Shown: positions 2,267-45,634 of the stretch, in pieces | Layout: every line of letters starts with the position of its first letter | Numbering within the stretch: position 1 is the stretch's first letter | Assembly: GCA_012270865.1 (NCBI GenBank) | Contig: JAAXHL010000124.1 | Coordinates: 1 to 64,000, forward strand | DNA from: Candidatus Poribacteria bacterium | Lineage (GTDB): Bacteria > Poribacteria > WGA-4E > WGA-3G | DNA: 64,000 bases | Reading direction: 5' to 3' | Notes under the pieces: generated by a model | Databases searched by the model: none | What the model was told of the DNA's origin: nothing | What the model saw: the letters and a program-made list of their open reading frames with translations, nothing else | Program-made: the position numbers and the translations under genes

Positions 2267-3037
2267 CTATCGTTGTAACGTCACGCCTGAGCGTTTCAGG
2301 TCCGCCCATTGGGTTGCCAGTTTACCTTGCGGTTCAACCGGCAGGAACGTCTCAACGCCTTCCATGATTAGATTGATTTCGTCTTCGTCCAAGGCACGGG
2401 TGAAGACTGCGTAATCGTCCATCAAACCGGCGAAAGTCTCGCCACCGGAACCACCGATCCGATAGGTGACGTTCGCACCAGCCGTTTCTTGGAAATCGGT
2501 CTCGGCGACCATCTCACCGTCGGCGTAAAGTTTGAATTTATCGCCATCGCTTGTAACCGCTACGTGCATCCACTTATCCGCTTCAACGATACCCGGATCG
2601 GTCTGACACAGAACTGTCCATCCGGCGACGCGTCCACGCCAAGAGATGAGTCCTTCGTCTTTGTTAATGAACAAGGTATTGTGTCCAGAAGCACCAGGGA
2701 GGCTCCGCCAGATGTGTTCCCACGTAGTGCCATCAAAGTTCGGATTAATCCAAGCAGAGATTGTGAACGGGTCTGATTTGAAAATGTCACCGTGAAGCGA
2801 GTCGGAGACTTGCATCTCGACATAAGCAGCCGGATCAAGTTCAATCGCGTCTCCAAATTTGCCAGCGACCCATTTGGAGCCGCCTGTAATTTCGCCGTGG
2901 TTATCGTTGCCGGATATGTCTTCGGGGTTCCCCTCAAACGGGTAGTATGCCACCATATCTGGATCTTCACCCGTAATCCCTAAAGTGGCACTCAAAAATA
3001 AAAAGGTGAATGACAAGATTAACGTAAGGACTTTCAT
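2267..3037 (-). CDS. Secreted LamG (concanavalin A-like) domain protein with C-terminal tag
   Basis: 256 aa with a signal peptide (about 1-20, MKVLTLILSFTFLFLSATLG). A single LamG/concanavalin-A-like fold follows: it begins VAYYPFEGNPEDISGNDNHG (29-48), contains PFTISAWINP, and ends DDYAVFTRALDEDEI, the hallmark end of LamG_3 domains. Such domains bind carbohydrate or protein outside the cell. After the fold comes a tail, LPVEPQGKLATQWADLKR, which is also found at the ends of three other secreted proteins in this window. The ATG at 3037 has AGGAG about 8 nt upstream. The substrate is unknown; the protein probably acts in the periplasm or on the surface. Confidence 0.85.
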   Translation of the reverse strand: MKVLTLILSFTFLFLSATLGITGEDPDMVAYYPFEGNPEDISGNDNHGEITGGSKWVAGKFGDAIELDPAAYVEMQVSDSLHGDIFKSDPFTISAWINPNFDGTTWEHIWRSLPGASGHNTLFINKDEGLISWRGRVAGWTVLCQTDPGIVEADKWMHVAVTSDGDKFKLYADGEMVAETDFQETAGANVTYRIGGSGGETFAGLMDDYAVFTRALDEDEINLIMEGVETFLPVEPQGKLATQWADLKRSGVTLQR

Positions 3038-3128
3038 CGGAATAGCTCCTTTTTAGCGTTTCGTTAGACGTTGAAAAATTTAGTCTACACCTAATCACAT
3101 ATTAACACATCAACGAAAAAAAATCAAT

Positions 3129-3246
3129 TTTTAGCAGGGAATTCAGGAATCGGGGTTACAAACCCCTCCTACAACGGGTTGGAGCCGTTTTTGGCAGGGA
3201 ATTCAGAAATCGGGGTTATAAACCCCTCCTACAACGGGTTGGAGGG
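3129..3246. repeat. Two tandem copies of a 60-bp unit with an internal hairpin
   Basis: Bases 3129-3180 recur at 3189-3240 with only a few changes, period exactly 60. Each copy holds a GGGGTT-N3-AACCCC stem-loop (3152-3166 and 3212-3226) followed by CTCCTACAACGGGTTGGAG. It lies in the gap between the LamG gene and the glycosyltransferase gene. Confidence 0.85.
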
Positions 3247-3257
3247 GCTCGGTGCGT

Positions 3258-4457
3258 TTATGAGGCACGTTTAATGATCTCGGTATAGCGTTGATGGAGT
3301 TTCGCACCGATGCTTCGCCAGTCGTAGTCTTTTTCGACGCGGGCGCGTCCGTTTTCGCCGATTCTACGGCGGAGTGCCGGGTCTGTCAGCAGTCGGGTGA
3401 CTGCCTCCGCAAAGGGTTTCGGTTCATCAGCAATGAAGATTTCCTCGCCGTCTTTGAGGTCTAACCCCTCCGCGCCGACTGACGTAGAAACAATCGCTTT
3501 GCCCATCGCCAACGCTTCGAGGATTTTCAGGCGGGTACCACTCCCGATACGCAACGGCACGACGAAGACCGTCGCCTCGGCGAAGTAGGGTTTAATCTCC
3601 GGTACACGTCCCGTAACGATAACGCCATCCCTTTCCGCCAACTTTTGGACGCGTGCCGACGGATTCCCGCCGACAATAGAGAATTGCACATCCGGTACCT
3701 TGTTTCGGATACCCGGTAAGATTTCATCTGCGAAGAAGGCGACCGCGTCCTCATTCGGATACCAGTCCATACTGCCGATATAGATGAGGTGTGCTGGTGC
3801 TTCGGTGGTAAAATCGGGTTGGAAATGCGTCACATCAACACCGTTTGGGATTATCGTAATAGTGTCCGTTGCGCAGTGCCGATGAAAGACGGCGGCATCG
3901 ACATCGGACGTACACGTGACGGCATCGAACTTCGGACTTAGCACCCGTTCATAGCGTTGAAAGGCGAGTTGCTGCGTCCAATACATGAATTTATAGAACG
4001 GGTTAGCCGTCTCACTACAGAGGCGCCGCCAGATTTCGGAATCGACGTTCTGTTGTGAAAGCACACCCGGTAGATCGGTCTCCGTGTGGAACTGTGCCGT
4101 GTGGAACATCTCGTAATGGACGAGATCGTAGGCTTCAGTCGCGAGCAACTCCTTGAATTTCTGACGGTAGGCAGGTAGATCGTAGCGTGCGACCGTGATA
4201 GGTTGTCGTCTGTAGAAGGCGTTGATAAGTGTACGGAACGATACGCGTGGGAGTGTCGGTGCATTCGGGACGAGGTGAACTTGAACGCCTAACTGCTGGA
4301 GTTCGGCGACACCTTCTTCATCTGTCGGTTGCGTCTCCAGGGCGAGCAGTGTTATATCGCTTTTCTTCGCAATCTGTTTGAGGAGGTTAAAGACCCGAAT
4401 ACGTCCGCCATCGGTGAGTGGAAACGGCACGGTGGGAGAAAGAAAAAGAATTTTCAT
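3258..4457 (-). CDS. Glycosyltransferase family 4 (GT-B fold)
   Basis: 399 aa transferase of the GT4 class, which moves a sugar from a nucleotide donor onto a glycan or lipid acceptor in the cytoplasm. The N-terminal Rossmann half starts MKILFLSPTVPFPLTDGGRI with the glycine-rich acceptor loop. The C-terminal half has IPNGVD (203-208), IGSMDWYPN (227-235), and the donor-binding stretch VPLRIGSGTRLKILEALAMG (300-319), in which E314 is the usual E of the EX7E motif. It resembles TIGR03087/stp1-like sugar transferases. It ends 21 bp before the 60-bp repeats and starts 10 bp after the S66 peptidase gene, with which it is probably co-transcribed. The acceptor cannot be told. Confidence 0.9.
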   Translation of the reverse strand: MKILFLSPTVPFPLTDGGRIRVFNLLKQIAKKSDITLLALETQPTDEEGVAELQQLGVQVHLVPNAPTLPRVSFRTLINAFYRRQPITVARYDLPAYRQKFKELLATEAYDLVHYEMFHTAQFHTETDLPGVLSQQNVDSEIWRRLCSETANPFYKFMYWTQQLAFQRYERVLSPKFDAVTCTSDVDAAVFHRHCATDTITIIPNGVDVTHFQPDFTTEAPAHLIYIGSMDWYPNEDAVAFFADEILPGIRNKVPDVQFSIVGGNPSARVQKLAERDGVIVTGRVPEIKPYFAEATVFVVPLRIGSGTRLKILEALAMGKAIVSTSVGAEGLDLKDGEEIFIADEPKPFAEAVTRLLTDPALRRRIGENGRARVEKDYDWRSIGAKLHQRYTEIIKRAS

Positions 4458-4466
4458 TTTTTTAAA

Positions 4467-5516
4467 TCAGACATCTATAACGGCTGCTTCGTCAATAACA
4501 ATTTCCTGCTTGGTGGAATCAATACGCACCTTTGTCCCGATTGGAATGACGAACATCGGATCGGTATGTCCGAAGTCCATATTGGTAACGATCGGCATAT
4601 CGTTTAGTCCGTGTTCCTCGCGGACGGCTTTACAGAGTGCATCGTCGTATTCGCTAAAAGTCTGTGGGTCAACACCGCCGCCGGGTCGTCCGAGTAGGAT
4701 ACCGTTAAGTCCTTCAAGAATACCCATAGCTGCGATGCATCGGACGAATTCGGTTAGAAACGAAGGGGGTGGCGCGTCTTCGGAAGTCTCTAAGAAAAGA
4801 ACGGCACCTTGAAGATCCGCAGCGGAAAAATAGTCAGTCCCGCGAAGCCAGTCCAGCACTTCAACACAGCCTCCGAATAGCTGCCCTTCGGCAATACCTC
4901 CGTCCTGATGAAATTTCCAGCCAGTGCAAGGGTTCAGTTTTCGACGGATGGATTGGTTTTCTGGGTTCTCCCACGGTAGACGTTCAACCGTCCATCCGGA
5001 TTGATTCTGCGGGATAACACCGATAGGTTCGGTAGAAAAGAGCGTGCGTCTAACGGAATCCACCATATAGGGAAACATCCCGCAGTTTTCAGCAAATCCT
5101 GCCATAAATGAGGGACCATAAAATGAGACGATACCTGCTTTAAAACAGACGGCGTGCGAAATAGTCGTGTCCGAAAAACCCATAAAGACCTTGGGGTTCT
5201 TCCGAATCAGGTCCAAGTCGAGGTAGGGCAGCGTGCGGATGGAATCTTCACCGCCGATTGTCGAGATGATACCGTCAATCGTTTTATCGGCAAAAGCCGT
5301 CATCAGGTCGTCGGCACGCGCTTCCGGGTTTTTAGCGAGCCAATCAGCATCGCGCAAGGCGTGCGCGGTTTCGATAACCGTTACGCCGAATTCTTCCGCA
5401 AATTGCTGTTTACCGATCTCATAACGGTAAGGAATGGTGCCGGGGCCACCCCAAGAGAGCGAAATCGCTGCAATACGGCTACCGAGACGCAGTATCTTGG
5501 GTTTGACTTTCATCAT
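4467..5516 (-). CDS. S66 family peptidase, LD-carboxypeptidase / MccF-like
   Basis: 349 aa serine peptidase of family S66, whose members cut L,D bonds in murein peptides or hydrolyse microcin C-type nucleotide peptides (MccF). The catalytic triad is visible: Ser115 in GFSD, Glu243 in FLETSED and His317 in DFGHTDPM, along with IGGEDS (88-92). The FLET-ED-PPP stretch and the length of ~350 aa favour the MccF-like branch over short LdcA. The start is ATG at 5516 or the next ATG at 5513. The gene overlaps the 3' end of the upstream membrane-protein gene by 38 bp, suggesting translational coupling. The true substrate is not settled. Confidence 0.88.
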   Translation of the reverse strand: MMKVKPKILRLGSRIAAISLSWGGPGTIPYRYEIGKQQFAEEFGVTVIETAHALRDADWLAKNPEARADDLMTAFADKTIDGIISTIGGEDSIRTLPYLDLDLIRKNPKVFMGFSDTTISHAVCFKAGIVSFYGPSFMAGFAENCGMFPYMVDSVRRTLFSTEPIGVIPQNQSGWTVERLPWENPENQSIRRKLNPCTGWKFHQDGGIAEGQLFGGCVEVLDWLRGTDYFSAADLQGAVLFLETSEDAPPPSFLTEFVRCIAAMGILEGLNGILLGRPGGGVDPQTFSEYDDALCKAVREEHGLNDMPIVTNMDFGHTDPMFVIPIGTKVRIDSTKQEIVIDEAAVIDV

Positions 5517-6582
5517 CCAATATCCCGATTTTTTCCTTTACTTTCGCAATAAGTACAAGCAGTCGTTCCTTCGCGCGCTGACGTGAACCCGGCACCGGTG
5601 GTGGCGGGTTAAAGACCGTCCCACGATCCCGCTGTACCCAGCCTTTTATACTGTCACTTGCCTGAATGCGAAGCCACTCGCTGTCCAGATCGAGGTAGAC
5701 GTTCAATCGCTCGTTCTCGTTTCGGATGTTATATTTTAGGGGTGTATCTTTGATGTGCCAACTCACATCGTTTTCACCTGTTGATACTTGCGTCTTCCGT
5801 GATAGCGGTATCTTCAACGCCTCAAATTCTCGTCTGAGTTCCTGCGTCAATTTGCCTTCAGCGAGAGCGGTCTGCGATGCTAAACCGACTTGAAACAGAA
5901 ACGTCAAAATCTCAGGTTTCGACTGCTGATAGACATTGAGTTTTTCAGTGCCGTTTTCAATGCGATACGTCTGCTGCGTCCCTTTATCTATGATACGCCA
6001 CCGCCTATTTACCTGTCCGGTGGAGATTTCCAAATCTGTGGAGAGCGGAAGATTGTTTTTATCAAAAGCGTCCTTAAGGTCGGGTAGGTAGACATCAATT
6101 TGATGACCTGTCTTGACGATGCTGTACCCGGCACCCGGTGCATTTTTGAGCACCCACTCCTCGCCACTTAACAGGACTTCGAGGGTAGCCGTACTCGGAC
6201 CGAAGCGAATATCTTCTGTCATATTCGCGAACATCTTTTGCCAATTAATCTCTTTTTCCAACGCGTTGTCAAGTTCTTTACCTTTGAGTTTGGCACGATG
6301 CGTCAACGCCGCGCTAAATAGGTGTTCTCGGTCCAATCTACCGCTGTTCAGATTGCTCATATATTTTTGATCTAAGTTGAAACGGTATACATCTTTGGTA
6401 TAGGCGAGCGGTTTGGAATTGACTGTCGGTCTCCCGCGGACGGCTGTACGACTGTGAATTTGCAGTTTCGCGGTGTCCTTCTGTTCAACCGGTGGTGCCT
6501 GAAGGATGTAGACCGCAATTCCAAAGCTGATTGCGAGGATAAAGATAATACCGAAGGTTAGGCTTTTCAGAAATGCTTTCAT
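5479..6582 (-). CDS. Membrane-anchored protein with two repeated domains and an SH3-like end
   Basis: 367 aa, function not recognised. It has an N-terminal signal anchor (about 7-29, LTFGIIFILAISFGIAVYIL) and then an exported region. Two similar segments carry a PLS..L-ISTG...RW.I.DKGTQQTYRIEN..EKLNVY pattern (about residues 175-225 and 260-300), followed by EWLRIQASDSIKGWVQRDRG, which looks like a bacterial SH3 (SH3b) strand pattern. A basic, coiled C-terminus follows. Its coupling to the S66 peptidase gene hints at a cell-wall role, but this is only context. Confidence 0.7.
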   Translation of the reverse strand: MKAFLKSLTFGIIFILAISFGIAVYILQAPPVEQKDTAKLQIHSRTAVRGRPTVNSKPLAYTKDVYRFNLDQKYMSNLNSGRLDREHLFSAALTHRAKLKGKELDNALEKEINWQKMFANMTEDIRFGPSTATLEVLLSGEEWVLKNAPGAGYSIVKTGHQIDVYLPDLKDAFDKNNLPLSTDLEISTGQVNRRWRIIDKGTQQTYRIENGTEKLNVYQQSKPEILTFLFQVGLASQTALAEGKLTQELRREFEALKIPLSRKTQVSTGENDVSWHIKDTPLKYNIRNENERLNVYLDLDSEWLRIQASDSIKGWVQRDRGTVFNPPPPVPGSRQRAKERLLVLIAKVKEKIGILDDESQTQDTASR

Positions 6583-6719
6583 GTGTGTTGTCCTATTCCG
6601 AGCAGTGTATTTTAAATTTGCTTCTTAAACGGATATAGGCAAAAATCAGTTGACTTTAAGTCTCCGAAAGTTCAGAATTGATCGTATATCTCTACTATTA
6701 TCCACTATTTAGGGGAAAT

Positions 6720-8024
6720 ATGCAAGCGTTAAATCCTTTAGCGATTGAATTAAACGAGGAACTTCGCAATGCTGCGCCATCGGTTTTCGCACTCCTTTCC
6801 GAATTAGGCAAACGTATCTACCTACCGAAAGGCATCTTAAGCCAAACAGCGGAAGCGAACGCGCAGGCGCATCAGTTCAACGCCACGCGTGCGATCGCCT
6901 TGGACTTTTCAGAGGACACAAGTGATATGATGCACCTGCCGGTTGCTCGGAAACTGGTGCCTGAACTCACACCAGAAAGCATCTACGGTTACGCACCCGT
7001 GCTCGGTCAGCAGGCGTTACGGGAGGCATGGAGAACGCATCTACTGCAAGAGAATCCGTCGCTCAGTCAGAAAACGTTCAGTCTCCCGATTGTGACCAGC
7101 GGCATGACACACGGGTTAAGCCTGCTCGCCGAACTCTTCGTGGACAGCGGAAACCTGCTTATTCTCCCAAATCAGATTTGGGGCAATTATAGGCTTATCT
7201 TCCAGACCAAAGCGGGTGCGGATATCCAGAGCTACCCCTTCTTTAACGCCTCCAGCGGCTTTAGCACACACAGTTTTCGCCAAACCCTCGCCGAGGCGAC
7301 CGATGAAAAACTGCGTGTCCTTCTGAATTTTCCGCACAATCCGACCGGCTATGCAATTACACACACGGAGGCACAACAGATTGTAGATGCAATCGTGGCG
7401 CGAGCAGAAACCGGATGCCGTATCCTTGTTATGATTGACGATGCTTATGCCGGTCTGTGGTATGATGAGACGGTCATGCACGAATCGCTTTTCGGTTTGT
7501 TGGTTGGATGCCACCCGAATGTGGTGCCTGTGAAAATAGACGGTGCCACGAAAGAGGAATACGCATGGGGTTTGCGTGTGGCGTTTATCACCTTCGGACT
7601 CGACGCAACGGTGATGCGACCACTGGAACAGAAACTAAGCGGACTCATCCGAGCGAATACCTCTGGTGCGTCGCAGGTTTCGCAAACACTCATCTGGACG
7701 GCGATGCAGGCACCGGATTATGCGGAACAGAAACAGCAGAACTATGAAATACTCAAGGCACGTGCGTTGAAGGTGAAGGCGGTTGCCTCTGATGAAAGGT
7801 ATGTGAGGTATTGGGATGTGTATCCGAGCCATGCCGGTTATTTCGTGTGTCTGCACCTTAAGTCTGGAAACGCTGAAACTGTTCGGCAGCGGCTGCTTGC
7901 AGAACACGGCATCGGTGTCATTGCGCTCGGTGAGGCGGCGTTGCGGATCGCGTATTCCTGTCTGGACGAGGCGGATATTGAGACGATGTTTGGGATAATT
8001 GTGAAGGTTATTGAGGCGTTATGA
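6720..8024 (+). CDS. PLP-dependent aminotransferase, class I/II
   Basis: About 434 aa from the ATG at 6720, chosen over an upstream in-frame ATG (6678) because AGGGGAA sits 3 nt before it at 6711-6717. Fold type I aminotransferase: NFPHNPTGYAITH (203-215), the cofactor Asp in VMIDDAYAGLWYD, and the Schiff-base Lys278 in DGATKEEYAWGLRVAF. The N-terminal and lysine regions resemble a poorly characterised aspartate-aminotransferase-like group rather than AspC, so the amino-acid substrate is open. It is divergent from the membrane-protein gene at 5479-6582. Confidence 0.9.
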   Translation: MQALNPLAIELNEELRNAAPSVFALLSELGKRIYLPKGILSQTAEANAQAHQFNATRAIALDFSEDTSDMMHLPVARKLVPELTPESIYGYAPVLGQQALREAWRTHLLQENPSLSQKTFSLPIVTSGMTHGLSLLAELFVDSGNLLILPNQIWGNYRLIFQTKAGADIQSYPFFNASSGFSTHSFRQTLAEATDEKLRVLLNFPHNPTGYAITHTEAQQIVDAIVARAETGCRILVMIDDAYAGLWYDETVMHESLFGLLVGCHPNVVPVKIDGATKEEYAWGLRVAFITFGLDATVMRPLEQKLSGLIRANTSGASQVSQTLIWTAMQAPDYAEQKQQNYEILKARALKVKAVASDERYVRYWDVYPSHAGYFVCLHLKSGNAETVRQRLLAEHGIGVIALGEAALRIAYSCLDEADIETMFGIIVKVIEAL

Positions 8025-8062
8025 AAACAATTTTTGGTAAATACCTCTTGTCCTTAATATTC

Positions 8063-8283
8063 CTATAGTTTGGACAGTTTCTGTTGGGTTCATGACCGGT
8101 TCCTAAAGCATTTCTGATTTTGCTGAATGTTTTTCACATAAATCTAACTCATAGAAAAATAAATTCTACTGCACCAATGATCAGTCCCGTAGGGACGGAA
8201 TGTCTATAGAAACGCCATATCTACCAAGCCCTAAGCCCCGTGGGGGCGGCATGTGTATTGTCTTAAAATTGTCCAAACTATAG
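8063..8283. mobile_element. 221-bp non-autonomous insertion element (MITE-like) with 9-bp target duplication
   Basis: Terminal inverted repeats CTATAGTTTGGACA (from 8063) and its complement ending at 8283 enclose 221 bp without a coding frame. The element is flanked by identical 9-bp direct repeats TTAATATTC at 8054-8062 and 8284-8292. Inside are TCCCGTAGGGAC and CCCCGTGGGGGC hairpins. It sits exactly against the stop codon of the gene at 8284-9234, whose TAA lies within the right target copy, so that protein is unchanged. Confidence 0.8.
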
Positions 8284-9234
8284 TTAATATTCAGCAGGTC
8301 TGGCAATACCACTATAAATTGATCGCATTAGTTTGCCTAAGAGAATTCTGTCCTCAGTATTCCGTATATAAGTAAATTTGAATCCTTTTTCTTTTTCGTC
8401 CCACTTATTTTCAATAATCATAATATGCTTGCTACCAGAGAAGGTAGTTTCAATAAAAGTCACCGAATTGTCATCTTTGACTAATTCTACTTCCGTTGAA
8501 CCAGCGTTTCCGGAAAAAATAGCACTGTCAGAACCAGTAATTGTGTATTGTAATTCGCCGTTGCGCAAGTCCTTAGCATCTTCGTTTGCAAGAAGCTTCC
8601 CGCTCGCGAGATCAAAATTTTTGTAGTTTCCTTTTCGGGCATAGATGATAAAAGTCCTTGTTCTCGGAAGGGGTGGACTGCTCCCGCCCGATGCCTTTGA
8701 AATTTGATATTGTCCTGCTGGTTTAGCTATCCCGCTATAGACAGATCTGAGAGTCTGCTGCAATAGTCCCATATCCCCAGTGTTTCGTGTATAGGTAAAT
8801 TTGAATCCCTTTTCTTTTTCATCCCATTTATCTTCAACAATCATAACGTGCTTGTTTCCAGAGGAGGTGGTTTCAATAAAAGTTACTGCTTGACCATCTC
8901 TAACTAATTCAACATCTGATATACCAGTGTTGGCTGAAAGAATTGCCTTATTGGGACCTGTGATTATAAATAGTAGTTCGCCTTTGCGAAAATCCTTAGC
9001 CTCTTCGTTTTTCACAAGCTTCCCACTAACGGGATCGAAAGCTTTGAAATTTCCCTGTTTGGCATAAATGAGAAATGTTTTTGTTCTGTCAAGGGAAGGA
9101 GTCTCTCGGTTTTCACTGTGCGTCTGTGCGATCAATTTCGGAGTTGTAAAAATTAGAAAAAGAATTATTGTGCCAAAAATACTTATCCAATATCTTGATA
9201 TTCGTGTTATACGGATTAGGGTTTGCTCCATCAT
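8284..9234 (-). CDS. Exported protein made of two near-identical tandem domains
   Basis: About 316 aa from ATG 9234 (AAGGAG 6 nt upstream), function not recognised. An N-terminal hydrophobic segment (WISIFGTIILFLIFTTPKLIAQ) looks like a signal peptide or anchor. Two copies of a ~125-residue unit follow, each with a TKTFLIYAKQGNFK-like start, SGKL..NE.AKD.R.GEL, VTFIETT.SG.KH.MI.E, KWDEKEKGFKFTY and a RS.YSGIA.PA end. The copies are very similar, which implies a recent duplication within the gene. An in-frame upstream start (9345) lacks an RBS and would precede the signal segment. Confidence 0.7.
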   Translation of the reverse strand: MMEQTLIRITRISRYWISIFGTIILFLIFTTPKLIAQTHSENRETPSLDRTKTFLIYAKQGNFKAFDPVSGKLVKNEEAKDFRKGELLFIITGPNKAILSANTGISDVELVRDGQAVTFIETTSSGNKHVMIVEDKWDEKEKGFKFTYTRNTGDMGLLQQTLRSVYSGIAKPAGQYQISKASGGSSPPLPRTRTFIIYARKGNYKNFDLASGKLLANEDAKDLRNGELQYTITGSDSAIFSGNAGSTEVELVKDDNSVTFIETTFSGSKHIMIIENKWDEKEKGFKFTYIRNTEDRILLGKLMRSIYSGIARPAEY

Positions 9235-9317
9235 CAAATCTCCTTGAAGTGTAACGTAAGGATTGTCACTTGTAAAAGGGCAGACACAGCGGCCTGCCCT
9301 ACAAGAAGTATATGAAT

Positions 9318-9929
9318 TTATTGTTCTGCCTTTAAGGCACCCCATGTCGTGGTGATTTTTCCACCGGGTTCAACAGGCGTAGTCGTCGGATCTCCGACAG
9401 TCTTGCGGAAATAGACATCGTCTTCAACGTCATTTGGACCTGCCCAGACCCAGTACGCTGTTGAGTCCGGATTGTTCAAGGTTTGGCGCATTGTGTCTGC
9501 CCCGAAACCCCAGATACCACTGCCGAACTGATCGAGTTGCGTCGCATTATCCCAGCTGCTATCGTCAAAATCAGGTTGTTCCCAACCGTCGTTCCGATCA
9601 GCAAGTGGGGTGCTGGCATCCGCCTTCCAAGTCTCATCAGAAGGGATATAGGTCCCGTCGTCAAGGATAACATCAAACAAGGCACCGCCACGTCCAGTAT
9701 CCCCGGGTTCCGCGTCATGGACGTAGACAGCGATAACAGCGTAACCGTCCGGCATGTCAAACTCAGTGATGGTGGCTTGTTGCCAGTTATTACCTTCAGC
9801 GACCTGTTCGCCGTTAATGAAGCCTACCCAGGAATTATCGCCATTGATACGGAGCGTTGCCGCCCAAGTACCTGAAGCGACTAAAGCAAAAACTAAAACC
9901 AAAATTGTGGGAATAAAAAACTTTTTCAT
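9318..9929 (-). CDS. Secreted beta-sandwich-like protein with C-terminal tag (copy 1)
   Basis: 203 aa. Signal peptide (1-23, ending SGTWA). The mature part is about 55-60% alike to the product of the next gene upstream: INGDNSWVGFINGEQVAEGN, YAVIAVYVHDAEPGDTGRGG, a DDSSWDNATQ segment, GSGIWGFGADTMRQTL and WVWAGPNDVEDDVYFRKT. The pattern is that of galactose-binding-like domains in secreted proteins, but no catalytic site is seen. It ends with PVEPGGKITTTWGALK, the tail shared with three other secreted proteins here. Start ATG 9929 with AAGGAG upstream. Confidence 0.8.
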   Translation of the reverse strand: MKKFFIPTILVLVFALVASGTWAATLRINGDNSWVGFINGEQVAEGNNWQQATITEFDMPDGYAVIAVYVHDAEPGDTGRGGALFDVILDDGTYIPSDETWKADASTPLADRNDGWEQPDFDDSSWDNATQLDQFGSGIWGFGADTMRQTLNNPDSTAYWVWAGPNDVEDDVYFRKTVGDPTTTPVEPGGKITTTWGALKAEQ

Positions 9930-9972
9930 TCGATTCGATTCTCCTTTTTTAGGTTATGATGATTGGGTGAGA

Positions 9973-10611
9973 TTACATCGCATCGTTTTTGATGCGTGCC
10001 CACGTAGTCGCGAGTTTGTCTTGCGGTTCGACGGGAAGCGTGCCGATAGTATATCGGAAATAGATGTCGTCTTCGACATCGTTGGGACCGCACCATACCC
10101 AGTTTGCCTCGCAATCCGGGTCTTTGAGAATCTCGCCCATTATTGCGGCACCGAATCCCCAAATACCGCCTCCGAATTTTTCGTAGATTTCGAGTTCATC
10201 TTCCCATTTGCTGTCGTCGAAATCGACCTCTTCCCAACCGTCATTCCGGTCATCGATAGGTTTACCGGTATCACACCGCCACCCTTCTTCGCCGGTCCCG
10301 ATGTAATCAGGCTTATCGTCAAGAATAATATCGGCGAGGAATCCACCTCTACCAGCGGCACCGGGTTCTGCGTCATGGACGTAAACAGCAATTAAAGCGA
10401 ACCCGTTGTCTAATTTAAATTCACTGACGGTCGGAGCTTGCCAGTTTCCGCTCTGTGCGACCTCCTCGCCGTTAACAAAAACAACCCAAGTATTATCACC
10501 ACTGACCCGCACTGTACCGTTTTTCGGGGCAGCATTTGTCGTATGTGGCAGAAATATGAGACTGCTTAAGAAGAACGCAAGTAACAAGGAGCCTATTGAT
10601 CGATCTTTCAT
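9973..10611 (-). CDS. Secreted beta-sandwich-like protein with C-terminal tag (copy 2)
   Basis: 212 aa from ATG 10611, preferred to 10623 because GGAGG lies 5 nt before it. Signal peptide 1-24 (ends TTNA). Paralogue of the product of 9318-9929 and 43 bp upstream of it: VSGDNTWVVFVNGEEVAQSG, ALIAVYVHDAEPGAAGRGG, DDSKWEDELE, GGGIWGFGAAIM and WVWCGPNDVEDDIYFRYT are shared. Ends PVEPQDKLATTWARIK. Likely a tandem duplication making two extracellular binding proteins; the ligand is unknown. Confidence 0.8.
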   Translation of the reverse strand: MKDRSIGSLLLAFFLSSLIFLPHTTNAAPKNGTVRVSGDNTWVVFVNGEEVAQSGNWQAPTVSEFKLDNGFALIAVYVHDAEPGAAGRGGFLADIILDDKPDYIGTGEEGWRCDTGKPIDDRNDGWEEVDFDDSKWEDELEIYEKFGGGIWGFGAAIMGEILKDPDCEANWVWCGPNDVEDDIYFRYTIGTLPVEPQDKLATTWARIKNDAM

Positions 10612-10745
10612 AAAAACCTCCATTTTTTAATTGACTTTGCAGTGTATTGTTGAAGATCACTGCATGTAGCCTGCCAACAGCGGCAGGCGGTTTTGAAGTA
10701 TGAACGTTATTGTTCGTATACCTTTCCTTTTCGTTTGGCGACACA

Positions 10746-11648
10746 TTAAAAATTTGATTCGAGTGCTAATTTTCCAGCGAGGTCCGCGACGAACTGATAA
10801 GCGACACGTCCAGACCGTCCGCTTGAGGATGCCTCCCACTCCAATGCTGCCCGGTGTAACGTCTCCGTCGGAACAGAGAGTCCCCGTTTTAACGCATAGT
10901 GCGAAACGATCTGTAAATAAGTATCCTGCGAAATCCGTTGGAAGGCGAGCCGTAGACCGAAACGATCGCTCAGCGACACCTTCTCCTCTGTCGCTTCACG
11001 TGGGTATAACTCATCTTCATCGTTTTGCGGATACCGGTTTTCTCGTACCTGCCGAGGCATCAGGTGCCGTCTGTTTGAGGTGGCATAGATGAGAACGTTG
11101 TCCGGACAAGCGGAGATTCCGCCTTCCAACATCGCTTTCAATTCTCGGTATTCGGGTTCATCTTCGTTGAATGCCAGATCGTCACAGAAGAGGATATAAC
11201 GTTCCGGACGTTCCCACAACACCTCGGCAACCTCCTGTAGATGTACGAGTCCTTCTTTGCCGATACCGATCAACCGAAGTCCTTTATCAGCATAACGCTC
11301 CAACATCGCTTTGACGAGCGAAGATTTTCCAGTACCGCGGTCCCCCCATAGTAACACGTGATTTGCAGGCAGCCCTTGTAAGAATTGTCGAGTGTTCCGG
11401 TCTAACGCAGCGGACTGCGAATTAATGCCGATGAGGTCGGTACTCTCCACGAGATGCGGGTGTTTCACAGGTACGAGATACCCCGTCCCGTTCTGCGCGC
11501 GCCACTGAAAAGCGATGTAGTCGTCAAGGCACTCGCCTTGCGTGTATCCGGCGCGAGCGTCTAAACGATTTAGCAAGTCGTCGGCTTTTTCAAGCAGTTG
11601 CCTAAAAAGTGGCACGATGCTTTCTGTCTCTCGGTTTTCTTTCGACAT
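10746..11648 (-). CDS. DUF815-family AAA+ ATPase
   Basis: 300 aa. P-loop GDRGTGKSS (102-110), Walker B YILFCDDLAF (151-160), sensor region NVLIYATSNRRHLMPR and the C-terminal lid region. The order and spacing, including GINSQSAALDRNTRQFLQG before the P-loop, match the DUF815 family (COG2607), a predicted cytoplasmic AAA+ protein of unknown role. It stands alone between secreted-protein genes on one side and two small membrane-protein genes on the other. Confidence 0.88.
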   Translation of the reverse strand: MSKENRETESIVPLFRQLLEKADDLLNRLDARAGYTQGECLDDYIAFQWRAQNGTGYLVPVKHPHLVESTDLIGINSQSAALDRNTRQFLQGLPANHVLLWGDRGTGKSSLVKAMLERYADKGLRLIGIGKEGLVHLQEVAEVLWERPERYILFCDDLAFNEDEPEYRELKAMLEGGISACPDNVLIYATSNRRHLMPRQVRENRYPQNDEDELYPREATEEKVSLSDRFGLRLAFQRISQDTYLQIVSHYALKRGLSVPTETLHRAALEWEASSSGRSGRVAYQFVADLAGKLALESNF

Positions 11649-11706
11649 AGGTTTAATTCAATTCGTTCCAGTTTTCTGTAGTGGATTTATGTATACCGTC
11701 GTTTAT

Positions 11707-11901
11707 CTATTTTTCGGAGGTACCGAGAACCCGTTTCAGCCATGCTTCAAGTTCACTGTCGCTGGAGATTTCTTTCACCGACCAAGTGATGCCCCATCTG
11801 ATACCCCATGCGATGCCAACAGCAAGCATGACTGTCGCAAAGATGGCACCTGATGCATACAAAAGGAATAGGATTACGAGTCCACCTAAACTTGAGGTCA
11901 T
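11707..11901 (-). CDS. Small membrane protein, paralogue of the next gene upstream
   Basis: 64 aa with one or two membrane passes (about 7-36, LVILFLLYASGAIFATVMLA) and an amphipathic end (DSELEAWLKRVLGTSEK). GIAWGIRWG..W and E.WL..VL..SE are shared with the protein encoded at 11951-12158. Function unknown; GAGTTAAC-type weak RBS before ATG 11901. Confidence 0.65.
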   Translation of the reverse strand: MTSSLGGLVILFLLYASGAIFATVMLAVGIAWGIRWGITWSVKEISSDSELEAWLKRVLGTSEK

Positions 11902-11950
11902 TGTTAACTCCTTATATTATTCTCTGACTCCCTATTAATGAGATATATTA

Positions 11951-12158
11951 CTACGGGTCCGATCTTTCAGAAGCGTTTAGAACCTGTTTCAACCATTTCT
12001 CAAATTCGGGATCGGTGTAAATAATTTTCAACAGCCATCTGCCGCCCCACCTGAGACCTAATGCGATGCCGATACCAATCATGACTGCCCCGAGCATAGC
12101 CGCTATTGGATATATCAATATCAGGAATATGAGCTCCAAAAAAACCGATTCCCATCAT
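11951..12158 (-). pseudogene. Small membrane protein gene, apparently frameshifted in a T7 run
   Basis: The frame 11951-12139 (62 aa from a TTG) encodes a paralogue of the product of 11707-11901: YPIAAMLGAVMIGIGIALG, RWGGRWLLK, EFEKWLKQVL. TTG has no RBS. A well-placed GGAGGG precedes ATGATG at 12158, and that frame joins the paralogue-like frame if one T is removed from the run of seven T (minus strand, near 12140). It is either a true frameshift, slippage, or a sequencing indel. Confidence 0.55.
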
Positions 12159-12239
12159 AGTTCCCTCCGTTACGTAATTGTGAGATTCTCAGTGAACATA
12201 AGACTTACGCGTCCAGCCTTCCAGCCTTCCAGCCATCGC

Positions 12240-13043
12240 CTATGGAGTAGCTTTCTTCAGTTGTCCCCACGTTAGTGTTAGTTTATCTATCGGATCAACG
12301 GCGAGCGGCTCGCCGAAGATCAAAGTACCGAGATTCGCGGAGTCATCTGGGTTTAGACCGTGCCAGTTCATGAACACCAGTTCTGCTCTCTTCTCAGGGT
12401 TATCCGTGCCTTCCTCGTATCCGGGCGTAAACCCGATTTCGGTACCCTCCTCGATTTTCGGGTCCGTGAGCCATTCAAACGGCATCGCCACCTCGTAAAC
12501 CATACCACCTTCGCCCAATTCAGGTGTCGGCAAGACCGCGATATCGGACCTTGGAAGATCGGGGTCTTCGACACCACTGAAATCGGTGACAAGTGCTTTT
12601 TCGTTGATATACGCGAAATTCGGTTTGCTTACAGGTTGTCCGACACCTGCCTTCTCCCAATCAATATACAAAAAGATTGTGTCGCCTGTCCAAGGTTGTC
12701 CAGCATTCGCCGAGGGTGCGAAAATGTCGTCGCGCACGGCTGCTGCGAAATAGAAGGTCTCCGCATCATACATCGTCGACCAGGTCATAGTGAGGTCATC
12801 TTTTCCCTCCCACGAGCCTTTTCCACGCAGCAGTTCCCGTTCCGAGTCGAACGCGACCCAAACCGCGTACTTCCAATCGTCAAGCTTCCCGTCAATCTTC
12901 GGCGCATTTGGGATGAATCCCGCAATTGATTCTCCGTATTCCAATCCAAACGCATCGGTGTTGTCCTCTGGCAAGAAGTCCGCATTCACTGCAAAGACGA
13001 ACACGATCCCAAAGAGGATAGATAAAATTATCGTTTTCATCAT
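12240..13043 (-). CDS. Secreted CBM9-like carbohydrate-binding protein with C-terminal tag
   Basis: 267 aa. Signal peptide (1-21, ends VNA). The family 9 carbohydrate-binding-module pattern begins APKIDGKLDDWKYAVWVAFD (about 48-67), continues DAETFYFAAAVRDDIFAP and GDTIFLYIDWEK, and closes with GTEIGFTPGYEEG and ELVFMNWHGLN. CBM9-type domains bind free sugars or cytochrome-linked ligands outside the cell; no catalytic domain is attached. It ends LAVDPIDKLTLTWGQLKK, the tail shared with the LamG and beta-sandwich proteins. Start ATG 13043 or 13040, with AGGAGAC upstream. Confidence 0.85.
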   Translation of the reverse strand: MMKTIILSILFGIVFVFAVNADFLPEDNTDAFGLEYGESIAGFIPNAPKIDGKLDDWKYAVWVAFDSERELLRGKGSWEGKDDLTMTWSTMYDAETFYFAAAVRDDIFAPSANAGQPWTGDTIFLYIDWEKAGVGQPVSKPNFAYINEKALVTDFSGVEDPDLPRSDIAVLPTPELGEGGMVYEVAMPFEWLTDPKIEEGTEIGFTPGYEEGTDNPEKRAELVFMNWHGLNPDDSANLGTLIFGEPLAVDPIDKLTLTWGQLKKATP

Positions 13044-40454: not shown

Positions 40455-41357
40455 TTATTCCAATCCCCACTGTTTCTTTGCCTCTTCAAACGAAATTTTT
40501 TGGCCGCCCGTGTGAGAAATCGGGTTCTTGCCGACCCATCGCTCATCGATCGGATGCTCTGCCGGTTGGAAACGGATGTCACAACTGACACGCCACCGAT
40601 CCGATAGGTTCTTGGTGGAAGTATGCATCGTGTGCATCGTGAAGATGATAACATCCCCCATCTCAAAATCGGCTGTTTTCCACTCACCGCCGTATTTATC
40701 GCTAATCTCTATCGGATCGCGTCCGAAATGACCAGGCGTACCGTCCCTATCGACATCTGTTTTACCGTAGGTATCCCGAATCCGCGCGAAACTCGGTAGG
40801 TTATGCGACCCGACCAAGACCGTCAGTGTCCCCATCGTCGCAGGTACATCACCGAACGGGACCCAACAGGTGTGCAGCTGCTTCGAGCCTCTCCCCATAT
40901 AGACGAAATCGAAATGCGGTCCCGACCAACCGTCAGGACGGACGAACCGGAGCCATTTGTAATCGAACGTTCGGGTATCGCCGCCGAAGAAGTTACGGAA
41001 GAATTTAAAGAGTTCATCGCCTTCTAAGACAGACAGTACATCTGGATGGTGTGTAACAGCGGGTGCCCCCATTGTCCGTCCGGGGCTTCCGTTCCCGGCG
41101 ACTGCTTCCATGATGTCGGTGTCCGCTTGAAATACCTCGTCTTTTCCGTTTCCCTCGGCATATTCAAGGATGGCGCGCCGCGCTGCGATAATCTTTTCCT
41201 TATCTATTAAGCCGCGGACGAGTAGATACCCGTCCTCTGCTATCTGTTCGTGCAAGCCTTCTGGTGAGTCGAGGACAGCGTTACAGTCCCGAAGTACACC
41301 GAGATGTGGACCCGGGAAGGTCATTTCATGGTCTCCTACAAAAACGGTTTTCGCCAT
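40455..41357 (-). CDS. Phytanoyl-CoA dioxygenase (PhyH) family oxygenase
   Basis: 300 aa. Fe(II) ligands His148 and Asp150 (GPHFDFVYMG) and a distal His in FTMHTMHTST, with Arg in SDRWRVSCDIRFQ for 2-oxoglutarate. It lacks the WHQD form seen in the 22359 copy, so it is a different branch. Start ATG 41357 overlaps the stop of the DprA-like gene by one base (TAATG), so the pair is coupled. Confidence 0.88.
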   Translation of the reverse strand: MAKTVFVGDHEMTFPGPHLGVLRDCNAVLDSPEGLHEQIAEDGYLLVRGLIDKEKIIAARRAILEYAEGNGKDEVFQADTDIMEAVAGNGSPGRTMGAPAVTHHPDVLSVLEGDELFKFFRNFFGGDTRTFDYKWLRFVRPDGWSGPHFDFVYMGRGSKQLHTCWVPFGDVPATMGTLTVLVGSHNLPSFARIRDTYGKTDVDRDGTPGHFGRDPIEISDKYGGEWKTADFEMGDVIIFTMHTMHTSTKNLSDRWRVSCDIRFQPAEHPIDERWVGKNPISHTGGQKISFEEAKKQWGLE

Positions 41358-42046
41358 TATGTTCCTCCGAATTGTGCTATTGCGGTAGCAGAGTTTTTGT
41401 TTTTCTGAACGTATGCGGACGGTTCCATCCGTTGTGCCCCAAGTTGAAAGAGTGTCTCGTTTGCCGGTGTCTCAAAGGTAAAGACGGGTTTGCCCGAGGC
41501 TATTACCTTCTCTGCGAATTCCAAAGTCTTACTGTTTTCAGCGGCGTGTGCGATATAGATTTTGTCCGCAAGCGCTGCGACGAAAGCGTTGCGTCGGTTC
41601 GCCAACGCGACTGTCTGTCGATTGTAACGACTTTCAAACGGCGATAGAATTAAGAGTCGCTCTTTGGCTAAAGCGTCTTTCCATACCGATTTCAGCCGCA
41701 TATTTTCGATGCTCCGTGCGGGACACAAGAGAATCGGTTGTACGCCGCGCAACAAGACACGCAGACATTCTTGTTCAATCGGCGAATGATAGCCTCCGAT
41801 TGTTGGGACCTCTCTCTCCTTGAACCTTTGTGCCAAGTCGTGTGTTTTCAATATCAGTTCCCCGGGACATTTCTTGGAACAGAAAAGTGCCCAGAGGTTT
41901 CCGTTGGAAGCGGTATCTGTTCCGGGTAACAAATCAATATTTCCACGTGCCCAAATCGTTTCGGGTGCTTCTGTTTTTAGGGAGTCCTTTAATTTTTTCG
42001 GGTAATTTGTGTCTATTTGTGTGACGCGTTGGATTGGCGGTAGCAC
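41357..42046 (-). CDS. DprA/Smf-like Rossmann-fold protein
   Basis: 229 aa. The segment YPKKLKDSL...PETIWARGNIDLL (15-39) is the usual opening of DprA-like domains, followed by NGNLWALFCSKKCPGE, where DprA has its nucleotide-like loop, and SPFESRYNRQTVALANRRNAFVAALADKIYIAHA, matching the NR.R...LA..viV..A core. It is shorter than true DprA and lacks the GAxGID segment. Such short forms occur in defence and mobile contexts. A promoter of its own lies at 42098-42126. Confidence 0.78.
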   Translation of the reverse strand: MLPPIQRVTQIDTNYPKKLKDSLKTEAPETIWARGNIDLLPGTDTASNGNLWALFCSKKCPGELILKTHDLAQRFKEREVPTIGGYHSPIEQECLRVLLRGVQPILLCPARSIENMRLKSVWKDALAKERLLILSPFESRYNRQTVALANRRNAFVAALADKIYIAHAAENSKTLEFAEKVIASGKPVFTFETPANETLFQLGAQRMEPSAYVQKNKNSATAIAQFGGT

Positions 42047-42097
42047 TTCTCATCCTACATGGTATTTGATAACTCTTTTAATTGTTGAAGTGATGTT

Positions 42098-42126
42098 ATT
42101 TTAACAAAACTTGGCAATTAGTGCAA
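42098..42126 (-). promoter_or_regulatory. Promoter of the DprA-like gene
   Basis: Minus-strand TTGCAC (42121-42126) and TAAAAT (42098-42103), 17-nt spacer, 51 nt before the ATG at 42046. It closely resembles the promoter at 48350-48378. Confidence 0.6.
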
Positions 42127-42305
42127 GAATATAACCTACCGTGAACAGGGCTATTTAGTTCTCGGTTTTTTCGTCCAATTTTGAACACCCAGGGCCGGTA
42201 GGTGCGGTTTGGAACCGCACCGGGACTGAAAAGAAAATTCAGAAATTTAGAAAATCTGATGATTTGTTTAAAACTAAATCACCCTGCTGCAGTAAACGGG
42301 TCGTA

Positions 42306-42839
42306 TCACGCAGAAAGCCGACGATGCGTTTCAGGTGGTGCGCCGTTTTGGAGCCAAATGATGGGTTGTTCTTCTGCCGTGCGGTCAGGATTTACCCAGA
42401 TGATGCGTTGGATCTCACCAACCTGTTGAGAGGCTCGTTTGAAAAGGTCTCGAACGGTTTCGTCAAGTGAAATAACAGTCCGATCGGTTGCGAGTGCTGC
42501 TTGTAAAAGGTGAAAATCCTTTTCCATCGCTTCAATCTCATCTTCATTGCTTGCTGTAACTGTGACCTTGTCTCGGAGTTCCTCATCCTCTGGTGGATTG
42601 ATACGATCTATTCTTCTACGCGCATCCATTGACACCCGCCATTCAAGCGCAAAGCCAGATCTATGCCTTTTCCATTCTTCGCTGATTTCTCTTGTCATCA
42701 CTATCCTATAATCTTGAGACCTTACTACCTTTAGGAAATCACGACAATTGATAGCACGTGGATCAGTCGCATCTTCATCACCGGACGATTGAGCAACATC
42801 CGTGTCAATTACGAATCGTTTTGAATCTCTTGATCTCAC
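42306..42839 (-). CDS. PIN-like nuclease, partner of the DUF3696 ATPase
   Basis: 177 aa. PIN-fold acidic residues: Asp12 and Asp14 (RFVIDTDVA), Glu51 to Glu55 (REISEEW), Asp108 (EKDFHLLQAALATDR) and Asp126 (VISLDETVRDL). The H-LL.AAL..D..VISLDE pattern is typical of PIN-domain RNases. Its ATG overlaps the ATPase stop by 4 bp. It is probably the effector nuclease of an ATPase-nuclease pair. Family membership is inferred from motifs, and the target nucleic acid is unknown. Confidence 0.75.
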   Translation of the reverse strand: MRSRDSKRFVIDTDVAQSSGDEDATDPRAINCRDFLKVVRSQDYRIVMTREISEEWKRHRSGFALEWRVSMDARRRIDRINPPEDEELRDKVTVTASNEDEIEAMEKDFHLLQAALATDRTVISLDETVRDLFKRASQQVGEIQRIIWVNPDRTAEEQPIIWLQNGAPPETHRRLSA

Positions 42840-44176
42840 GAAGCCTCCTTGTCGCCAAATCTGACATTGTCTACAGCATCAAGAAAACGACTCTGCACGT
42901 TGAGACTGACATCATCAAAATCCATGGGCCACTCTCCGTAAGTTCCCGCTTCATCTAAATCGGCACTATTAACTTTAGTCACCCCATCTTCACGCCGTGT
43001 GAACCAGTGCAGCTTGACTAACTCCGACGGAAGATCTCCTTCAGCGACAAGCGTTTGAACGCCCAAAAGTAGCAGTGAACTATGGGTTTCGGCAACGACG
43101 CGCACTCCCCGTTTTGCTGCGTCTGCTAATACTTGTGCCAATGCAACTTGTGCACGAGGGTGGAGGTGCAGTTCGGGTTGTTCAAGGTAGACCAATTGTG
43201 AGGGGCGTGCAACAATCAGTGCCACTAAAACGGGCAAAACTTGGGATACTCCAAAGCCTACCTCAGTTATATTGACCATGTCTATTTCATTGTTTTGATG
43301 ATTGAGGAGGCGACCGACTTGAAGTTCAATGCGGGTGTCCCCAATTTTTTTCGCCCTGACGTGTCCTGTCAGACCAAGTATATTAAGAACTTCGGCGAGA
43401 ATAGCAGCAGGGTTACTATAATTTTGATAATTTTGAAAGTCTTCTCCCAAGTCATGTCTATCAAACGGATTACCCAATGTTTCTAAGGGTTTATCTGTTC
43501 TCTCCTGCCACTCGTGAATGAGAGTCGCAACGTAATTTTCAAACGTGCCGGGATACCAAGAACCAGTTCCTGTCAACTTGTAACTGCGTTCCGGATTGCC
43601 GCGTAATCCGGGGAGATGAATGCTTTTGATAATTTCCCTGTTGACGTTGTCGGGGAGGGTAGTCAAAATGCCTGAATGTTTAGAGTGATAACCGTCCGGT
43701 ACTAAGGTACATCTGGAACGTCTTACCTTTGGCATATCAGGAGATAAGGTAATACCTTCAGCAGGAAATGAGGGTGGATGACTCGCTGATTTTTTTTCTC
43801 CGACCATTTTGATAATTTCAATGGCACTACCTCCTTTTCTAAAAATTGTTTGCACTGAGTCAAGATAAGCATGTTCTCGGATTTCAATCTTAATCTGAAA
43901 ACGATCTGTCTTCTTTCCATTCGGTAACGTGGACAAAAATTGTACTACCTCAGTAAATTTCACATTCGGTCCATCAATCAACAGCGGGCCCGGATCGTAA
44001 GGTGCCTCCAGCGTCTGCTTCAGCATCAATAGCGGTTGCATGATACTGGATTTCCCAGAACTGTTCGCACCAGCAAGAATCGTCAGTGGGCGGATGTCAA
44101 TTGAACACTCCTCCGCGATTGACTTGAAACCTTTCACGGTTATTTTGGTGATGCCTTCTCCTTTTCCCCTTGGCAT
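42836..44176 (-). CDS. ABC/OLD-like AAA ATPase with DUF3696
   Basis: 446 aa. ITKITVKGFKSI (9-20) and P-loop GANSSGKSS (36-44) open an SMC/RecF-like ATPase. The signature-like GFGVSQVLP (307-315), Walker B LVYLEQPELHLHP (328-340) and the ETHSS (363-367) switch close the site. The C-terminal ~80 residues (LVKLHWFTRREDGVTKVNSA to LDEAGTYGEWPMDF) match DUF3696. Such ATPases are commonly paired with nucleases in anti-phage systems; here the partner is PIN-like. RBS AAGGAG before ATG 44176. Confidence 0.9.
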   Translation of the reverse strand: MPRGKGEGITKITVKGFKSIAEECSIDIRPLTILAGANSSGKSSIMQPLLMLKQTLEAPYDPGPLLIDGPNVKFTEVVQFLSTLPNGKKTDRFQIKIEIREHAYLDSVQTIFRKGGSAIEIIKMVGEKKSASHPPSFPAEGITLSPDMPKVRRSRCTLVPDGYHSKHSGILTTLPDNVNREIIKSIHLPGLRGNPERSYKLTGTGSWYPGTFENYVATLIHEWQERTDKPLETLGNPFDRHDLGEDFQNYQNYSNPAAILAEVLNILGLTGHVRAKKIGDTRIELQVGRLLNHQNNEIDMVNITEVGFGVSQVLPVLVALIVARPSQLVYLEQPELHLHPRAQVALAQVLADAAKRGVRVVAETHSSLLLLGVQTLVAEGDLPSELVKLHWFTRREDGVTKVNSADLDEAGTYGEWPMDFDDVSLNVQSRFLDAVDNVRFGDKEAS

Positions 44177-44196
44177 GTGGATACTACTCCTTGTGC

Positions 44197-44244
44197 TAAT
44201 CGTTCACTTAATCGCTTATCTAATCGCTTACTTAATCGCTTACT
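44197..44244. repeat. 12-bp minisatellite, four units
   Basis: TAATCGTTCACT, TAATCGCTTATC, TAATCGCTTACT and TAATCGCTTACT in series. It spans the 3' end and stop codon of the AlbA_2 ATP-binding gene. The period of 12 preserves the reading frame. Confidence 0.85.
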
Positions 44245-45611
44245 TTTCGGACGTATCGGCTTCCTCTACCCTTTCCTATTATGGACAATAACCCTTTATC
44301 TGTCATATCCTTTAGTTCCTGATAGGCAATCTTGCGCGAGATATTGTTGATCTCTACGTATTCCCTTGTCGCAATTTGCCCGTATCTTTGCACATGAAAC
44401 AATGCATTCCTTTGACGTTCATTCAATTGTTCCGAAATATCATCTATTTCTATAAAAGTGCTCTCTTGAATCGGGGAATCAAAGATGATTTTCGTCTCCA
44501 ATGGGTGGAATTCATAACGCGGTGCTTTGTTTCCCCATTCGTTAGAGAGTCTCTTCATCATTTTGATGCCAGAACCGTAACGTTCAATGAAGCCAATATC
44601 GTACATGAATTGGCTTAAAATGGGATTTACTGGTTCATGGACTGGCGCGTCCGGACTGACACCTTCTGGAAAAGTGCCGGGATTAATGACCTCAACGCGG
44701 GTATCAAATATAAACACTCGGACATCCGAGTGTTTTTGATAGTTGCGGTGAATTAAGGCATTGATAATCGCCTCCCGCAGTGCCTTCAGCGGATACTCAA
44801 ACTTATCGTCTCGTTGGAAACTCCTTGAGGTACGAAAACTGAGGAGTCTAATATTTTTCCTGATGAATTCCTCGGCGGCATCGACCATTTCCCACAGTGC
44901 TCCAGAGCAATCCAGTCGATCAATGACAGGATGGGTAACCGATATTCCTTTAAATCTAACAACCCGGAGCTGCGCATTTTGGAGGAATCTTTGCGGGTAA
45001 TTACCGAAGAAGAGAATACCGGCATGGGTTGGCGTTCCTTCTCCGTTACCTCCTTTAATGTTTCTCAACAATTCTGTCACGTCCATGTCTTGCGGTTTTG
45101 CAACGTTCCGGACCTCTTCACGCCGAGTTAAGTACCACTGCACTTTTTGCGGGTCTATATCCTCGCTTCCGGCGTTCCCTGCTAAGTGTCTATCCCAACT
45201 TTGTCCGGTGGCGTTGAGATGCATCTGGGCAATCTCTTGTGGGGGCATGACGCGGTTGCTGTTCCCGACTCTCTTATAGCATCTGCCTTTAACCGAGACC
45301 GGTTTTATAGAGGATTCTGCGATATGTATCAACACCACCGATTTTTCTTTTACATCAACGGATTCAATTTCCATGACCACCCGCGGCTCAGTCGCTTGAA
45401 AGATTTGGTTTGACCAGTTCCTTAATGTTTCCTTCCCGACGGTAATACCTCTGATTTCTCCGCTATCAGACACGCCGATAAGAATCGTGCCACCCTCGGT
45501 ATTGGCAAACGCAGCGGCGGTTTCAATAGTTTCCTGATCGAAACTCTCTTTGAATTCGGTTGTGGTATTTTCGCCTTGCGCGATGCGTTGTTTGAGTTCT
45601 ACGGTTTCCAT
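44232..45611 (-). CDS. AlbA_2/Schlafen-like ATP-binding transcriptional regulator-type protein (COG2865)
   Basis: 459 aa from ATG 45611; a TTG 12 codons earlier would overlap the upstream gene. AlbA_2 domain: TTEFKESFD (17-25) and FANTEGGTILIGVSDSG (35-51). A GHKL-type HATPase_c_4 region follows (ALREAIINALIHRNYQ; RVEVINPGTFPEG; YGSGIKMM). The C-terminal winged helix (ERQRNALFHVQRYGQIATRE) ends KVSD, within the 12-bp minisatellite. This architecture is widespread, often beside mobile genes; its role in this island is unknown. Confidence 0.88.
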   Translation of the reverse strand: METVELKQRIAQGENTTTEFKESFDQETIETAAAFANTEGGTILIGVSDSGEIRGITVGKETLRNWSNQIFQATEPRVVMEIESVDVKEKSVVLIHIAESSIKPVSVKGRCYKRVGNSNRVMPPQEIAQMHLNATGQSWDRHLAGNAGSEDIDPQKVQWYLTRREEVRNVAKPQDMDVTELLRNIKGGNGEGTPTHAGILFFGNYPQRFLQNAQLRVVRFKGISVTHPVIDRLDCSGALWEMVDAAEEFIRKNIRLLSFRTSRSFQRDDKFEYPLKALREAIINALIHRNYQKHSDVRVFIFDTRVEVINPGTFPEGVSPDAPVHEPVNPILSQFMYDIGFIERYGSGIKMMKRLSNEWGNKAPRYEFHPLETKIIFDSPIQESTFIEIDDISEQLNERQRNALFHVQRYGQIATREYVEINNISRKIAYQELKDMTDKGLLSIIGKGRGSRYVRKVSD

Positions 45612-45634
45612 AGTTTTTGATAAGGTCCAAATGC

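Follow-up and report, generated by a model that had tools for sequence, protein, structure and literature searches.

A short C-terminal tag on exported proteins of Candidatus Poribacteria, probably a sorting or anchoring signal linked to a type IX-like secretion system

Poribacteria are dominant, uncultured symbionts of sponges, and we know of no account of how they display proteins to the sponge host. A 64-kb stretch from Candidatus Poribacteria bacterium (contig JAAXHL010000124.1, positions 1-64,000, of assembly GCA_012270865.1; hereafter the window) holds four genes for exported proteins whose C-termini are alike, and poses the question of what this shared peptide is for. The tag was found at all four genes for which it had been predicted, 3-8 residues from the stop codon, and no match beyond these four was found among the open reading frames (ORFs) of the 64-kb window; the folds do differ, as had been proposed, but they are three rather than four (LamG, CBM9 and one paralogue pair). 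The tag is a terminal peptide under strong selection, carried by exported proteins with many folds throughout the phylum, and it probably acts as a transmembrane-free sorting or anchoring signal for Sec-exported envelope proteins, linked to a system resembling type IX secretion (T9SS). The tagged proteins of the window and their tags are as follows:

2267..3037, minus strand: LamG (concanavalin A-like) exported protein of 256 residues, with signal peptide and tag (Pfam PF13385, E=6.7e-24)
2291..2344, minus strand: tag of the LamG protein, VEPQGKLATQWADLK / LPVEPQGKLATQWADLKR, 8 residues before the stop, 41.1 bits
9318..9929, minus strand: galactose-binding-like beta-sandwich exported protein (rhamnosidase-region-like), 203 residues, tagged (NF041573 likeness)
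9327..9380, minus strand: tag of the 203-residue beta-sandwich protein, VEPGGKITTTWGALK / TPVEPGGKITTTWGALKA, 3 residues before the stop, 36.4 bits
9973..10623, minus strand: tagged paralogue of the 9318 protein, 212-216 residues depending on the choice of start codon (PDB 3w5m, E=1.1e-5)
9985..10038, minus strand: tag of the 9973 paralogue, VEPQDKLATTWARIK / LPVEPQDKLATTWARIKN, the top-scoring tag of the genome, 4 residues before the stop, 43.5 bits
12240..13043, minus strand: CBM9-like exported protein of 267 residues, tagged (Pfam PF06452, E=5e-7)
12252..12305, minus strand: tag of the CBM9-like protein, VDPIDKLTLTWGQLK / LAVDPIDKLTLTWGQLKK, 4 residues before the stop, 35.1 bits

The proteins at 9318-9929 and 9973-10623 are adjacent paralogues sharing 56% identity, and both resemble a region of alpha-L-rhamnosidase (NF041573; PDB 3w5m).

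A conserved terminal peptide on exported proteins

A tag profile built from 39 rows and run against the window's own genome retrieved at least 98 places at E<=1e-4, and 127 at a loose limit. Eighty stretches around profile matches, together with the window, made up a sample of 1.4 Mb and 1,136 non-overlapping ORFs; being chosen around tags, this sample covers about a quarter of the genome and its background ORFs are neighbours of tag genes. The tag lies near the stop codon in 111 of these ORFs, with two further, weaker variants found by inspection, and follows the consensus V-[EDS]-[PA]-x-[GD]-K-L-[AT]-T-T-W-[GA]-x-[LI]-K. Of the C-terminal tails, 105 contain its core, K[LIVMA]x3Wxx[LIVM]K, as against 3 matches in 355,648 non-terminal residues, and in shuffled tails it appeared 0.12 times on average and twice at most (200 shuffles), which rules out chance as its source. 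The strict motif of the original prediction is real but too narrow, matching 48 of the 111 tagged proteins.

Conservation within the tag is concentrated on V3 (109/111), K8 (107/111), W13 and K17 (each 111/111); the regular expression used for placing demands W13 and K17, yet it placed all 111 proteins that the profile had selected. Since lysine makes up only 57% of lysine plus arginine elsewhere in the tagged proteins, K17 is selected as lysine itself, beyond its positive charge; position 17 is arginine in 2 of 51 tags from deep lineages. Among pairs of identical tag residues 39.6% share their codon, with 35.1% expected from codon usage, and this diversity of synonymous codons rules out gene conversion or recent copying between genes. 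Local gene conversion had been named beforehand as the case that would refute a shared signal; it is excluded by the codons and by the spread of the tag through genome and phylum alike.

The tag was detected in all 85 poribacterial genomes, which come from 22 genera and 10 families, so that it extends far beyond the four proteins on which it was first noticed. A genome has from about 80 to more than 100 places if it belongs to the window's genus, 60-106 if it belongs to the same family otherwise, and 12-108 elsewhere. In proteins, about 110 small Sec-exported ones bear the tag per genome in this genus, and a smaller number do in most other families. All 51 tags examined from nine genomes of other families are terminal, often stopping at K or one residue later. 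In a weak outgroup test limited to plasmids from a Paenibacillus and from an actinobacterium, the LamG homologues carry no tag.

Enrichment of the tag among proteins with signal peptides, which the original prediction proposed to look for, is pronounced: under a simple hydrophobicity rule (a basic residue and, after it, a hydrophobic stretch of 11 residues close to the N-terminus; the rule is not SignalP and counts membrane proteins among the untagged ORFs too), 104 of the 108 ORFs scoring at least 12 bits with the tag no more than 25 residues from the stop have a signal-peptide-like N-terminus, versus 324 of 1,028 (32%) other ORFs. The four negative ORFs lack their own N-terminus or are contig-edge fragments. 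Lipoprotein sorting is ruled out, since at most one of the 111 tagged proteins has a lipobox-like match. About 56 soluble exported proteins in the sampled stretches are untagged, including some with dockerin-like and barrel-like C-termini; the tag is therefore the commonest C-terminal type near these loci, one among several. Dockerin-like C-terminal repeats, a third C-terminal type of the same genome, were seen on exported proteins at four loci (L039, L058, L086 and L097; e.g. ADVNGDGVVNIQDLVLVASGF).

A Pfam/NCBIfam scan placed LamG in 56 of the 111 tagged proteins, the other domains being PD40/TolB-like propellers, CBM9, F5/8C, NPCBM, CBM4_9, 3-keto-disaccharide hydrolase-like, PA14, LTD and LRR. 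A majority of the about 110 tagged proteins are predicted to be sugar-binding. None of the Pfam or NCBIfam families matched by the 111 proteins describes the tag itself. Among LamG ORFs of up to 360 residues 61 of 62 are tagged, whereas none of the eight longer ones is, and one of these eight ends in a T9SS-type C-terminal domain (CTD; TIGR04183), a division that resembles a choice of anchor. At one further locus (L087:8652-9623) the tag continues in frame into a phytanoyl-CoA dioxygenase-like ORF without an intervening stop, probably because a tagged gene upstream was truncated or through an assembly fault.

As for conformation, the AlphaFold model of a tagged LamG protein (23 sequences, mean predicted local distance difference test, pLDDT, 57) leaves the tag as an unpacked, tentatively helical tail (pLDDT 30-40), and is too poor a model to serve as evidence for any conformation of the tag. 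The periodicity of the sequence favours instead a strand, the hydrophobic moment being 0.57 at 160 degrees (control 0.28) as against 0.31 at 100 degrees (control 0.26).

Links to a T9SS-like system

Single-cell genomics by Kamke et al. in 2014 reported T9SS-type CTDs in Poribacteria together with the apparent lack of structural Por genes (PMC3909097), and recent papers present T9SS as a system of Bacteroidota (PMC7463736, PMC10994853). TIGR04183, the model of these CTDs, gives 37 matches in the window's genome and 47-78 in six other genomes. One tag of the genome is not terminal: in a 629-residue FG-GAP/ASPIC protein it reads VEPTGKQTTTWGRIKVAEVFQ and is followed directly by NYPNPFNPETWIPYQL, a T9SS-type CTD (Pfam FlgD_ig, 42 bits; Por_Secre_tail, 26.9 bits). 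In other large proteins a degenerate tag stands directly before CTDs of the NYPNPFNPET type, at a position kept between genomes. The tag-like sequence loses key residues there, W usually becoming L, and L9 becoming Q, T or N, as expected if the CTD takes over.

Components of a possible translocation machinery were also recognised. SprA_N (PF14349) is matched in 79 of the 85 genomes, and the window's genome encodes a 2,254-residue protein matching TIGR04189 (Sov/SprA; E=1.8e-41, 141.6 bits), with homologues in 21 of 21 loci examined; its named relatives are all from Candidatus Poribacteria, and a PDB search with the SprA profile gave no match. These loci (L093:3621-10385 on G000:C65, and 20 others) encode a divergent SprA/Sov-like translocon of about 2,000-2,300 residues when complete, seen throughout Candidatus Poribacteria. 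The genomes with such loci also hold PorV-family and PorU-like genes: the PorV-family barrel model (NF033709) matches 16 times in the window's genome, with 8 single stretches above cut-off, and a C25 peptidase is found in 84 of 85 genomes. On contig C143 a 2,109-residue ORF with C25 peptidase and CTD, to judge by its sequence a PorU-like sortase, adjoins a PorV-family gene; a porU-porV neighbourhood is also present in Porphyromonas. In the window's genus, tagged LamG genes adjoin sprA.

On balance, and with moderate confidence, we favour the view that the tag is a stand-alone C-terminal recognition signal of Candidatus Poribacteria, read by a receptor of the envelope for the sorting or anchoring of the proteins, with the T9SS-like set as the likeliest machinery. 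This agrees with the sorting, anchoring, processing or scaffold-binding role originally suggested insofar as signal-peptide enrichment and the genome- and phylum-wide spread speak for such a signal, while the processing part of that suggestion was left without an enzyme tied to the tag. Sec would export the small tagged proteins, a dedicated envelope receptor would then recognise the tag, and the receptor would direct the protein to the outer membrane or cell surface or retain it there, the tag being probably an address label for the cell surface. The SprA/Sov-like translocon, PorV-family shuttles and PorU-like peptidase are the likeliest machinery, and the tag could be the short-protein alternative to the CTD. 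The T9SS-like set leads among the candidates because the tag-CTD joint is shared, because short LamG proteins are tagged and long ones are not, and because the tag decays before a CTD. A more specific form of this reading is conceivable, and we hold it only tentatively: the tag would be the minimal, fold-free signal of a divergent, possibly GldM-less T9SS, its 17-residue peptide being read by PorV-like shuttles or a PorU-like sortase, with more than 100 lectin-like proteins per cell placed on the sponge-facing surface.

Several results weigh against an assignment to T9SS. About 26 of 30 CTDs in the window's genome have no tag before them, the tag-like sequence preceding only about 4, and because most CTDs lack it the tag and the CTD may be independent of each other. 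The SprA homologue, at 141.6 bits, falls under the equivalog cut-off of 200. GldM/PorM (TIGR03517) was not detected (1 of 85 genomes at E=0.004, none above cut-off), and may be too divergent for detection. Only in one genus do tag genes adjoin sprA, the surroundings of porV and CTD genes hold no excess of tag genes, and no receptor or processing enzyme was found. As for an enzyme co-occurring with the tag, which was looked for as proposed, PorU-like C25 peptidase and SprA are, like the tag, present in nearly every genome, so that there is no variation by which to tie an enzyme to it. Nor do the tails have the features of a CTD. Like the type A CTD of T9SS (TIGR04183 / PF18962, including the short CTDs of Prevotella intermedia; PMC11969387), the tag is C-terminal, is carried in each genome by dozens of Sec-exported proteins with diverse domains, and is accompanied by SprA-, PorV- and PorU-like genes, besides preceding a CTD directly in some proteins. 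However, it has about 17 residues as against 43-100, far below the 43-55 of the shortest described CTDs (PMC11969387); it lacks motif B (PNP), motif D (GxY), motif E and a beta-sandwich, and neither TIGR04183 nor PF18962 is among the families listed for the 111 tagged proteins (complete NCBIfam table; 25 commonest Pfam families). Without motifs B, D and E, and at this length, the tag is by definition not a CTD.

Alternative readings of the tag

It is rather doubtful, though it deserves weight, that the tag is a docking peptide apart from T9SS, i.e. a short linear motif bound by a periplasmic or outer-membrane scaffold which holds carbohydrate-binding proteins on the envelope in the manner of cohesin and dockerin. 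W13 and K17, being strictly invariant, point to a specific pocket, the tag genes are not linked in the genome to porV or CTD genes, most CTDs lack the tag, and dockerin-like C-termini occur in the same genome; against this, no candidate scaffold was found, and a docking peptide does not predict a tag-like sequence exactly at the CTD joints of several large-protein families, kept across genomes. Dockerin is similarly a C-terminal module on carbohydrate-active exported proteins, but it has two Ca-binding repeats of about 22 residues each, of which the 17-residue tag has none. Other known systems differ more. MYXO-CTERM, GlyGly-CTERM and PEP-CTERM, the substrates of myxosortase, rhombosortase and exosortase, are likewise short C-terminal sorting tags, phylum- or lineage-wide on dozens of exported proteins, but they combine a signature motif with a transmembrane helix and a basic tail, whereas the 0-12 residues that follow K17 form no transmembrane helix; with no transmembrane segment in the tag, a sortase or exosortase substrate is ruled out. 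The cargo peptides of microcompartments and encapsulins are also short C-terminal targeting peptides after a linker, and microcompartments have been suggested in Poribacteria (PMC3909097), but those cargoes are cytoplasmic and the tagged proteins bear Sec signal peptides.

A role in quality control or degradation, or direct binding to the membrane as an amphipathic peptide without a protein receptor, is improbable. The short, terminal position, the raised hydrophobic moment and the unpacked AlphaFold tail (pLDDT 30-40) would suit either of them, yet an amphipathic peptide should tolerate the exchange of K with R and of W with F or Y, whereas K17 and W13 are both found in 111 of 111, and a degradation tag is hard to explain on more than 100 exported lectin-like proteins.

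Least credible of all is an evolutionary leftover, in which the tag would be the functionless remains of a pre-CTD linker after loss of the CTD: it resembles the pre-CTD joint, and downstream of one weakly tagged gene (L052:6790-7902) lies an out-of-frame T9SS CTD remnant, ASGVYFYTFTAGEFTATRKMLIRE, but W13 and K17 are invariant with diverse codons, tags that no CTD follows are better conserved than those before a CTD, and even the deepest lineages have the tag at the terminus. That locus is possibly a CTD caught in decay; a truncated CTD as the general origin of the tag was rejected, downstream remnants occurring in 1 of 111 genes only.

Surroundings in the window and significance

Other features of the window stand apart from the tag. 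Flanked by tagged genes, 8284-9345 encodes an exported-looking, untagged protein of no known family that consists of two near-identical repeats; read at full length, its ORF runs into the tagged gene at 9318, an overlap that a later start codon would remove. At 548-2179 a type I restriction methyltransferase-like protein (PADLOC 579 bits) adjoins the first tagged gene, and 41357-57378 is likely to be a defence island, with the following members:

42836-44176: AAA ATPase, closest to NsnB
44232-45647: AlbA-like ATP-binding protein with pAgo-model matches
50158-53403: type IIG restriction-methylase (PADLOC 1184 bits)
53989-57378: PLD+SNF2 helicase

Carried by more than 100 genes per genome, the tag marks out much of the exported set of these sponge symbionts at once and opens that set to testing by proteomics. 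None of the Pfam and NCBIfam models searched represents the tag, and it is found together with T9SS-like outer-membrane machinery. Should the tag indeed be a signal for T9SS, its length would fall below that of the shortest CTDs found described, and the signal information would be separated from the beta-sandwich fold.

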